Shown: piece after piece, positions 22,863-26,511 of the stretch
Layout of the letters: each line of letters opens with the position of its first letter
Position numbering within the stretch: the stretch's first letter is position 1
From: Rhizobium sp. Q54
Lineage (GTDB): Bacteria; Pseudomonadota; Alphaproteobacteria; UBA828
Direction of reading: 5' to 3'
Assembly: GCA_945892755.1 (NCBI GenBank)
Contig: CAMDDO010000020.1
Location: 1 to 42,836, forward strand
DNA: 42,836 nucleotides
Position numbers and translations under genes: made by a program
The notes under the pieces: generated by a model
Databases searched by the model: none
What the model saw: the letters and a program-made list of their open reading frames with translations, nothing else
What the model was told of the DNA's origin: nothing

Positions 22863-23025
22863 TCTTTAAGGCTGCGGCAAGAGAGGCGCGGTTTCAAGGG
22901 CGACGTGAGGCGACACCGCGGTCCGAGTCGATCGCCGGGCCTGGCGGGGCACCGATTTAGCGTAATGTAAAGACCGAGGCGGTTGTTACGACGCCGACAA
23001 GGCTTGGCGAACCGAGGAAATGGTC

Positions 23026-23502
23026 ATGGATGGTCTCGAAACCGGCCGCGCGCTCCACGTGGCGGCGGTTGTCATTTGGATCGGCGGCGTCGCTTTCGTG
23101 ACGCTCGCACTCCTACCGGTGCTCGGCAGGGGCGGCGCAGACCAGGACTGGTTTGCGCGCTTTACGGCAATCGAGAGACGCTTTGCCTGGATTGCACGCA
23201 TTGCGCTGCTCGTCGCTGGCGGCAGCGGCTTCTACATGATCGTCGCGATGGATGGCTGGGACCGCTTCACGATGATTTCGTATTGGTGGATGCACGCCAT
23301 GGTGGTGGTCTGGGTGATCTTCGCGCTCATGCTGTTCGTAATCGAGCCGCTCGGCCTCGATCGCATTCTCGAAACCAGAGCGAATCGAAACCCAGGCCGC
23401 ACGCACGCGCTAGTTTCTGGCGCTCATTGGGTGCTCCTGGTGTTCTCGCTCATCGCAACCTTCGGCGCCGTGGCCGGAAGCCACGGCGCCTTTCTGAGCT
23501 AG
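23026..23502 (+). CDS. four-helix integral membrane protein, CopD-like
   Basis: The 158-residue protein has four predicted transmembrane segments. Histidines lie in or at the edge of helix 1 (RALHVAAVVIWIGG), helix 3 (YWWMHAMVV) and helix 4 (SGAHWVLL). The WIGG motif and this layout resemble CopD/DUF-type small membrane proteins, some of which bind haem or copper. No specific function can be assigned. I chose the second ATG (23026) because GAGGAA then lies at normal spacing, whereas the first ATG abuts it. The last codons encode a perfect terminator hairpin. It converges on the nitrite reductase gene. Confidence 0.72.
   Translation: MDGLETGRALHVAAVVIWIGGVAFVTLALLPVLGRGGADQDWFARFTAIERRFAWIARIALLVAGGSGFYMIVAMDGWDRFTMISYWWMHAMVVVWVIFALMLFVIEPLGLDRILETRANRNPGRTHALVSGAHWVLLVFSLIATFGAVAGSHGAFLS
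23464..23495 (+). terminator. intrinsic terminator embedded in the end of the coding region
   Basis: GGCGCCGTGGC-CGGAA-GCCACGGCGCC is a perfect 11-pair stem with a 5-base loop, followed by TTTCT. It lies before the stop codon (23500-23502), so the hairpin also encodes the last residues of the membrane protein. Confidence 0.65.
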
Positions 23503-23512
23503 TCGGTCGGTC

Positions 23513-25270
23513 TTAGTGGCCGTCGGAATCCTTGGGATCTTGGCTGCTCATATCGAAGATTTCGCGATTCTCCTCGCCCTCGGCGATGAGGAAGCCGACC
23601 AGGCCGCGCTCAAGCCGCCCAAGCGCATGATCGACCAATATGTAGCGGCCGGGCACTTCGATCTTGAAGTCAACGATGCCGGCGCCGCCCGGCGGCACAA
23701 CGATCGTTTGTACGCCTTTGAGCGGTGGACTCATGATGCTCGCCAGATTATAGGCGTCGTCGAAGATTTCGCCGATGACGTGGAAGGCCGAGGTGAAGTT
23801 CGGCCCGCCGACACCGAAATAGATGCGTACGGTCTCGCCGACCTTGGCCTTCATGGCGTGCGCCTTGGTCAGGGCACCGACGGCGCCATTGAAGACGAAA
23901 TACTCGGGCTGTTCCGCCAGCATCTTGTCGACGCTGAATTCCTGGCTGCCCTGCTCGCCAAATGGCGCCTCGGTATACATCTCGCCCTGCATGACATAAA
24001 ACTCGCGCGAGACCTTGGGCATGCCGCCCTCGGGCTCGACCAGGATCAGGCCATACATGCCATTCGCGATGTGATGCGCCACCATCGGCGTCGCGCAGTG
24101 GTAGACGTAGAGGCCGGGCACCAAGGCTTTCCACTTGATCGATTTCTCCTCGCCCGGCGGCACTTGGAGGGCCACGGCGCCGCCACCGGGGCCGGTGGTG
24201 GCGTGAAAGTCGACCGAATGGATCATCGCGCTATCGACGTCGTTCTTCATATGGATGTCGATGGTATCGCCGACGCGGACGCGCAGGAACGGCCCGGGCA
24301 CCGTGCGGTTAAACGTCCAATAGCGGTAAGTGGTGCCATCGGCCAAGCGACCATCGAGTTCGACCGATTCGAGATCGATGCGCACCGTCTCGGGCACACG
24401 TCGCTCGATCGGTGGCGGCAGAGAGGTTGGGTCCATGACAATATCGACCTGCTCGGCCGCCGACGGCGCCGCCTCGGCAACCACGAGCTTGCCCTCAAGG
24501 CCGGCTCCGCGTTGACCGGGCAGGGTTGAGAGATACGCGAAAGTACCGCCCTTCGTGGCCCGAAATGAGATGGTCGTTCCCGCGCCAATTTTGGTCACGC
24601 TTTCCGAGGTCACCTTCTGATCCGGAAACGCGAGATTGTGTTCATCGCCTTCGCCATTGATCAACGTGACCTGGATGACGTCACCGACCGACGCGTTGAG
24701 GACCGGGTTGGCCTGGCCATCGATCACTCCACCGACGCCGATGAAGACGATGCGGCCTTCGTGCTTGGCGGTCCGCAAGGCGAAAGCGACGTCGGGCACA
24801 TAGGTCACCGCCGCGCGTTCTTCCGCGGGGAGAGCCGCCACTGTGGTGGTCTTGGATGGAGCGGCGCTGACGGTCGATGCCTTGAGATAGGCGATAACAT
24901 TGGCGCGATCACCCGCATCGCGCAGCCCGTTGAAGGTCATCTTATTGCCAGGCAGGGCGCCCTTGGGATCGGCGAGGTAGGCGTCGAGAGTTTTGTCATC
25001 CCAGACAATCCCGGACTCCGTCATTGGCTTCGAGAATTTGAAATCGGGCAGCGTGCCCGCGGTTCGGCCAAAGATCCCCGCGAGATTGGGACCAACTTTT
25101 TTCTTCCCCGGCTCCATCGAATGGCAGGCCTGGCATTTTTGAAAGACCTTCTTGCCGGCTTCTGCGTCGCCCGCCGCAAAGGTGTCCGTGGCTCCAGCGA
25201 ACCCGGCACTCGCGATCATGATCAACGCAAACGAGATTTGGCGTGACGATTTCCCTTGATTCCTAGGCAT
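23513..25270 (-). CDS. nirK: copper nitrite reductase with N-terminal cytochrome c and degenerate cupredoxin
   Basis: Periplasmic enzyme reducing nitrite to nitric oxide, 585 residues after an ATG with a GAGGA site. The signal peptide is about 1-33. The class I cytochrome c domain has haem site C46-QA-C49-H50 and probable axial Met111. The cupredoxin domain (about 160-265) keeps His211, but the expected Cys, His and Met ligands are Ser248, Gln253 and Leu258, so it should not bind type 1 copper. The NirK core is class II (AniA/Hyphomicrobium type). Its type 1 ligands are His351, Cys392, His400 and Met405, its type 2 ligands are His356, His391 and His548, and its catalytic residues are Asp354 and His497. 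All are present, so the core should be active. The fused cytochrome is a likely electron feeder. An FNR-type box lies upstream. Confidence 0.93.
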   Translation of the reverse strand: MPRNQGKSSRQISFALIMIASAGFAGATDTFAAGDAEAGKKVFQKCQACHSMEPGKKKVGPNLAGIFGRTAGTLPDFKFSKPMTESGIVWDDKTLDAYLADPKGALPGNKMTFNGLRDAGDRANVIAYLKASTVSAAPSKTTTVAALPAEERAAVTYVPDVAFALRTAKHEGRIVFIGVGGVIDGQANPVLNASVGDVIQVTLINGEGDEHNLAFPDQKVTSESVTKIGAGTTISFRATKGGTFAYLSTLPGQRGAGLEGKLVVAEAAPSAAEQVDIVMDPTSLPPPIERRVPETVRIDLESVELDGRLADGTTYRYWTFNRTVPGPFLRVRVGDTIDIHMKNDVDSAMIHSVDFHATTGPGGGAVALQVPPGEEKSIKWKALVPGLYVYHCATPMVAHHIANGMYGLILVEPEGGMPKVSREFYVMQGEMYTEAPFGEQGSQEFSVDKMLAEQPEYFVFNGAVGALTKAHAMKAKVGETVRIYFGVGGPNFTSAFHVIGEIFDDAYNLASIMSPPLKGVQTIVVPPGGAGIVDFKIEVPGRYILVDHALGRLERGLVGFLIAEGEENREIFDMSSQDPKDSDGH

Positions 25271-25346: not shown

Positions 25347-25360
25347 TTGACCTGAGTCAA
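25347..25360. promoter_or_regulatory. FNR/NnrR-type binding site upstream of nirK
   Basis: TTGAC-CTGA-GTCAA is a perfect 5-4-5 inverted repeat of the CRP/FNR superfamily type, centred about 84 bases before the nirK ATG. At the usual -41.5 position it would give a leader of roughly 40 bases, a class II activator arrangement for low oxygen or nitric oxide. Confidence 0.75.
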
Positions 25361-25371
25361 AGCGGGTGAAT

Positions 25372-26511
25372 TCACGGGCTCTTGCCGCCATCCCAGGCCG
25401 TGACGATCTCGGCGGCCTTGCGCTTCGTGATGACCGTGCGCGCGGGCTCCACCGCGCCGTCGATCCGCGCCGGAAACAGCACCTCGATGAACGGGTCGCG
25501 GCCCTCATGGCGTCGCACAAAGCCACGCGCGGCGGTCTGCGGGTGGTCGACCATCTCGGCCAGCTCATGGACCGGCTCGAAGCAGCAATCGATCGGCTCA
25601 AGTCGAGCATTCCACACGGCTAGCGTCTCGGTCTCGAACAGTGCGGCGACCTCGGCGATCAAGGCGGTCTGCGGCGTGGTCTCCCATTGCCGCGCCACCC
25701 AATCGGTTCGGCCGACCGCGGCGCAAAAATTCGCCCAGAATTTATCTTCGAGCGCGCCGAGCGACACGAAGCGGCCATCCTTGGTGCGATAGATTTGATA
25801 GAACGCCGCGCCACCGGTGAGGAAGGCTTCACCGCGCACGACCTCATGGCTCGGCCGGGTCAATGCGGTCAACGCCCATTGGCTCCAGGGCAGCGGGCTC
25901 TCGGCGATCGAACAATCGATATAACAGCCTTGGCCCGCACCGCCCGGCCGGTCGCGCCCGATCAACGCGCCCTGGATCGCGAGCGCGGCGTGCATGCCGC
26001 TCGAATAATCGGCGACCATGGGAAAGCTCGCATAGGGCCGCGCGGCGCTGCCACTCAAAGCGAGCGCGCCGAACAGCGCCATATAATTGATGTCGTGCCC
26101 GCCCTTCAATCGGTAGGGACCGCTCGCGCCCCAGCCCGACAACGAACAACGGATCAGCCGTTTGTTGAGCGCGGCGAGCCGCGCATCGGCGAAGCCGAGC
26201 CGGTCCAACACACCCGGCCGATAGGACTCGAGAAAGACATCGGCGCGCACGACGAGCGCTTCGAGATCGGCCTTGCCGGCGGCTGATTTGAGGTCGAGCT
26301 CGACATAGGATTTGCCGCGATTGATCACCTTGTACCAGGCCGAGACGCCGTCGCGATCGAGTGGGCCGATCTTGCGCATCGGCTCGCCGCCCGGTGGCTC
26401 GATGCGGATCACATCGGCGCCGAGATCGGCCAGGATCAGCGAGGCATAGGGCCCCGGCGCGTACTGCGACAGATCGAGGACGCGAACACCTTCGAGAAAG
26501 CGGAAGGGCAC
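25372..26511 (-). CDS. CoA-transferase family III / alpha-methylacyl-CoA racemase-like protein
   Basis: CaiB/BaiF superfamily enzyme, 379 residues. It begins with the family block GVRVLDLSQYAPGPYASLILADLGADVIRIEPP. GGHDINY (His139) and MVADYSSG (Asp168) match the catalytic His and Asp of alpha-methylacyl-CoA racemase, so epimerisation of 2-methylacyl-CoA thioesters is more likely than CoA transfer. At about 380 residues it is close to racemase length. The substrate is unknown. It lies upstream of nirK on the same strand, but the FNR box and promoter region separate them, so nothing ties it to nitrite reduction. Confidence 0.87.
   Translation of the reverse strand: MPFRFLEGVRVLDLSQYAPGPYASLILADLGADVIRIEPPGGEPMRKIGPLDRDGVSAWYKVINRGKSYVELDLKSAAGKADLEALVVRADVFLESYRPGVLDRLGFADARLAALNKRLIRCSLSGWGASGPYRLKGGHDINYMALFGALALSGSAARPYASFPMVADYSSGMHAALAIQGALIGRDRPGGAGQGCYIDCSIAESPLPWSQWALTALTRPSHEVVRGEAFLTGGAAFYQIYRTKDGRFVSLGALEDKFWANFCAAVGRTDWVARQWETTPQTALIAEVAALFETETLAVWNARLEPIDCCFEPVHELAEMVDHPQTAARGFVRRHEGRDPFIEVLFPARIDGAVEPARTVITKRKAAEIVTAWDGGKSP

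Follow-up and report, generated by a model that had tools for sequence, protein, structure and literature searches.

Four-domain copper nitrite reductases (NirK), in which a cytochrome c and a cupredoxin are both tethered N-terminally to the catalytic core (PMC8301774), have been described in Rhizobiales, for example in Bradyrhizobium sp. ORS 375 (PMC7775769, PMC8301774). The enzyme of that strain, BrNiR (core structure 6the; Sasaki et al., FEBS J), has a class II core and the same domain order as the NirK analysed here. The three-domain enzyme of Hyphomicrobium denitrificans, HdNiR (2dv6, 6tfd, 6tfo), is homologous to it throughout the cupredoxin and core (59% by structure alignment), but lacks a cytochrome domain and holds a type 1 copper in its cupredoxin. 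In RpNiR and PhNiR the class II NirK core likewise carries a tethered haem and the tether likewise contains a tyrosine, although there the cytochrome is C-terminal and a third cupredoxin is absent. The role of the extra redox domains is disputed for some nitrite reductases.

Within the window, the whole 42,836-nucleotide stretch of alphaproteobacterial DNA analysed here, an open reading frame supported by profile matches encodes a four-domain NirK of 585 residues plus stop on the reverse strand (23513–25270). All of its parts lie on that strand. A signal peptide recognised by eye (residues 1–33; 25172–25270) precedes a class I cytochrome c domain placed by profile match and alignment (residues 34–131; 24878–25171), a flexible linker set by alignment and disordered in the predicted model (residues 132–156, 25 residues; 24803–24877), a cupredoxin delimited by alignment and predicted fold (residues 157–267; 24470–24802), and the two-cupredoxin class II core with its linker, assigned by TIGR02376 and the match to 6the (residues 268–577; 23540–24469). 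The profiles behind these assignments are Pfam Cytochrom_C at 36–131, with a CycA-like cytochrome c550 also matched in NCBIfam, and the TIGR02376 copper nitrite reductase model at 274–577, which scores 325 bits (cut-off 296). The ATG at 25270 was chosen as the start because it fits both the signal peptide, which is N-terminal only from this codon, and the start of the sister gene described below, which uses the homologous ATG; an in-frame GTG further upstream, at 25375, was rejected on these grounds. From its signal peptide the protein would be exported to the periplasm. A Pfam scan shows a single NirK.

The design of haem, cupredoxin and NirK core had been called uncommon when the sequence was first read by itself, a view that the homologues do not support: the architecture is the known BrNiR kind, with cytochrome c, cupredoxin and NirK core in this order in one chain. 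Besides being published in Bradyrhizobium and other Rhizobiales, it was found with an intact cupredoxin in 35 homologues from several alphaproteobacterial families (L006, L007, L051, L081 and 31 in or from a search of one large family, f172), to which the window NirK is homologous over all its parts and among which it is nested in the tree. Matches covering the core occurred in 36 of 391 f172 genomes and nearly always took in the cupredoxin too; the identity of four-domain cores from this search to 6the reaches 87%, which makes f172 the probable family of Bradyrhizobium. No additional four-domain copy came from the families f58, f68, f73 and f88, and the matches listed from a plasmid collection were core-only NirKs apart from a few that covered cupredoxin plus core (Deinococcus). 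Within the four-domain set no linker is as short as that of the window NirK, which has 27 residues when counted from residue 130, against a median of 42 and a minimum of 32. The nearest relatives of BrNiR have longer linkers, a longer region before the haem and an intact cupredoxin site, whereas in the window the linker is short and the site is lost. Four-domain NirKs of a Bradyrhizobium-like clade (L081, L082 and L085–L114) are rich in Ala and Pro over long segments of the linker and of the region that precedes the haem motif; the window, L006 and L007 have only short segments of this kind or none.

At the meeting point of linker and cupredoxin lies Tyr157 (24800–24802), a position that is Tyr in 35/35 intact four-domain NirKs and that aligns beside His27 of HdNiR, the residue that reaches the type 2 copper. 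By analogy, Tyr157 may parallel the gatekeeper Tyr323 of RpNiR (PMC6038957).

The catalytic core is complete. Alignment places the type 1 copper (T1Cu) ligands at H351, C392, H400 and M405, the type 2 copper (T2Cu) ligands at H356, H391 and H548, AspCAT at D354 and HisCAT at H497, so that residue by residue the core bears out the initial reading that no copper ligand and neither catalytic residue is missing. This His2-Cys-Met and His3 arrangement with both catalytic residues is that of class II (clade II) NirK, and across 82 aligned rows all of these positions are invariant except M405, which is kept in 79. The predicted core superposes on 6the over 299 residues at 0.7 Å with 69% identity, and 6the is among its best structure matches. 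The haem ligands of the cytochrome domain are also complete, with CxxCH at 46–50 and the axial Met111.

The N-terminal cupredoxin is different. When its site positions were set by alignment to HdNiR (6tfd and 2dv6), the His, Cys, His and Met positions of HdNiR were found to hold H211, S248, Q253 and L258, confirming the replacements that had been proposed from the sequence. The Ser248 codon is TCA (24527–24529), where all intact homologues have Cys; the Gln253 codon is CAA (24512–24514), where they have His; and the Leu258 codon is CTT (24497–24499), where they and the sister gene have Met. The H/C/H/M set is present in 53/53 other homologues that have the cupredoxin, 35 of them four-domain and 18 three-domain, and among the homologues aligned only two proteins depart from it: the window NirK (HSQL) and L034 (HSQM), from the same genus. 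The loss of the cupredoxin copper site is therefore well supported at the sequence level. The window NirK thus lacks N-terminal type 1 ligands that 35/35 other four-domain NirKs possess, although these are a common trait of the group and lie outside the architecture-based definition used in papers such as PMC7775769 and PMC8301774. It also lacks the ligands of the second type 1 copper that marks HdNiR-type class III enzymes, which carry two type 1 coppers in each subunit and form hexamers, two trimers joined by their cupredoxins.

L034 comes from the MAG Baikal-deep-G55 (matching locus L005 in genome G001, of the same genus as the window) and is syntenic with the window across ClpS, ClpA, CoA-transferase, nirK, a small membrane gene, TauD and glyoxalase. 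Conservation of the three replacements holds for Ser and Gln, which both genomes share, and fails at position 258, where Leu is specific to the window genome. Homologues of the same order with an intact site, which the sequence-only reading had taken as the sign of a single-genome anomaly, are in fact the rule (35), but with Ser and Gln also present in the sister MAG the loss is no such anomaly. The two genomes encode these residues with different synonymous codons (TCA/TCG for Ser and CAA/CAG for Gln), which marks the change as inherited and not as a sequencing error. Although the window comes from a draft of 117 contigs, the open frame, the second assembly with its differing codons and the strong purifying selection described below make a sequencing or assembly artefact scarcely credible.

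In a tree built from the core only, the window and L034 group together (100/100) inside the intact homologues, with the intact L006 nearest to the pair (96/62) and the deeper four-domain branches not resolved. This nesting makes one loss of the site, in the ancestor of the window's genus, the best reading of the alignment and tree, and as far as seen the lost-site four-domain NirK is confined to this one genus of uncultured Alphaproteobacteria.

Is copper, or something else, bound at the altered site? The window cupredoxin contains no Cys and no Met, and His211 is its sole conserved His, His170 not being conserved; no replacement copper site is therefore visible. A residue comparison likewise found no His, Cys or Met gained in both the window and L034 cupredoxins. 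On this chemistry the domain would be copper-free, in line with the metal-free cupredoxin first suggested, although the absence of other ligands excludes a normal type 1 site and not every weak site. His211 and the polar Ser/Gln pair still stand at the former site and could in principle hold another metal or ligand, but given the same dearth of conserved or newly gained ligands we consider such a remodelled site very improbable.

Cupredoxin folds without a type 1 or CuA site exist elsewhere, in the CuA-less CyoA of bo3 oxidase and in the second of the two cupredoxins that make up each NirK core; those losses are ancient and affect other proteins or positions, whereas the loss in the window is recent and restricted to a genus. 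A partial literature search found no published description of a copper-less tethered cupredoxin in NirK. What is new here is the loss of the N-terminal copper site in a four-domain NirK, the architecture itself being already published.

The copper-less domain is predicted to keep the cupredoxin fold. Its model has a mean pLDDT of 92.8 and matches the copper-loaded domain of HdNiR at 1.0–1.1 Å over 110 residues (Z 22), the next fold matches having Z under 14; AlphaFold cannot show the absence of copper, and its input alignment consisted mostly of intact homologues. Between the window and L034 the cupredoxin has a dN/dS of 0.089 (bootstrap 0.043–0.162), compared with 0.095 for the cytochrome and 0.030 for the core, an estimate that represents one comparison of two genomes. 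Among close relatives with a copper-loaded cupredoxin, compared in 42 pairs with core dN under 0.06, the median for the domain is 0.068; values over deep pairs were discarded because dS was saturated. The two copper-less cupredoxins are 83% identical at a dS of about 1, without indels, and retain Glu207 and His211; Tyr157 is kept in the window. Cupredoxin dN divided by core dN, however, is 4.36 for the window and L034, against a control median of 1.03 (5–95% 0.34–2.55, maximum 3.08; 42 pairs), and the corresponding ratio of protein distances, taken against intact homologues, is about 1.9 rather than about 1.4. Sequence comparison thus indicates that the copper-less cupredoxin is under purifying selection and is less constrained than the core; a dN ratio above all 42 controls fits relaxed constraint and was counted against our best reading.

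These ratios are what would be expected of a cupredoxin in decay, its ligands lost once copper had become dispensable and the domain persisting only as a piece between two useful ones. The disagreement at position 258 points the same way, as does the interruption of the sister copy: L034 (6001–7759) carries a frameshift near the Tyr157 codon, next to the junction of cytochrome and cupredoxin, which splits the gene into a pair of overlapping ORFs; the second of these lacks a signal peptide. This may be a MAG error or a real split, and a break at this place counts against the reading as a working enzyme. Decay nevertheless sits poorly with a dN/dS whose upper bound of 0.16 is far below 1, with the lack of indels at that divergence and with the three retained residues, and we regard it as unlikely. 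That the window copy is a pseudogene was rejected, the core dN/dS being 0.03.

The reading that we favour, with moderate confidence, is that of a four-domain NirK of the BrNiR kind that lost its cupredoxin site once, whose haem supplies the core T1Cu without a cupredoxin relay and whose cupredoxin is structural. The enzyme would probably reduce nitrite to NO at the core T2Cu, with electrons most likely entering at the tethered haem and passing to the core T1Cu and on to the T2Cu. The step from haem to T1Cu could be direct, by docking of the cytochrome on its flexible linker, or could run through an outside donor; no relay through the window cupredoxin would be possible. The cupredoxin would act as a structural spacer that positions the linker with its invariant Tyr157 and, by analogy with HdNiR, would probably make trimer–trimer contacts. 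With haem and core ligands complete and the site between them lost, the first proposal of a scaffold cupredoxin and a haem as direct donor thus stands as the best reading, its electron route being conjectural.

Data from related enzymes bear on this route in both directions. In HdNiR the N-terminal copper is about 24 Å from the core T1Cu, the trimers meet through their cupredoxins, and pulse radiolysis suggests that the N-terminal copper takes electrons first (PMC7201279); its loss could therefore slow the enzyme, which was counted against the favoured reading. An HdNiR mutant in the N-terminal T1Cu is reported to have activity above wild type (cited in PMC4770552). For BrNiR, a review of the work of Sasaki et al. 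(PMC12117333) gives a fall in rate from 9.38 to 1.67 nmol/s on removal of the cytochrome. This fall, together with the full retention of the haem ligands in the window, argues against a soluble donor that delivers electrons to the core T1Cu directly while haem and cupredoxin regulate by tether gating, as has been proposed for low-activity tethered enzymes. Tethered CuNiRs are indeed slower than two-domain ones (PMC13324648), and the conservation of Tyr157 beside the His27 position would suit such gating, but on balance we think this route rather improbable.

Whether the tethered cupredoxin has turned from an electron carrier into a structural adaptor between haem domain and NirK, with the N-terminal type 1 copper dispensable in nature, is a proposition on which we are evenly poised. 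The window's genus amounts to a natural knock-out, with the copper site gone and both domain and haem kept, and so tests the need for that copper in electron delivery; if the proposition is true, tethered nitrite reductases can in nature do without their N-terminal type 1 copper.

Upstream of the gene, 77–90 bp from the ATG, lies the perfect palindrome TTGACTCAGGTCAA (25347–25360, reverse strand), a candidate operator of FNR/Dnr type and the sole occurrence of TTGACNNNNGTCAA in 42.8 kb (expected 0.03). It looks like an FNR/Dnr-family box. An equally spaced TTGACCCAAATCAA (−91) precedes the nirK of L034. Such a candidate box fits an expressed nirK that is anaerobic or NO-responsive.

On the other side of nirK and convergent with it, the forward strand encodes a 160-residue membrane protein (23020–23502) with weak UPF0093/HemJ-like Pfam matches only. 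Genes for homologues of this protein immediately follow nirK elsewhere (L055, 955–1440; L011, 2426–2893), a placement that suggests a partner of nirK.
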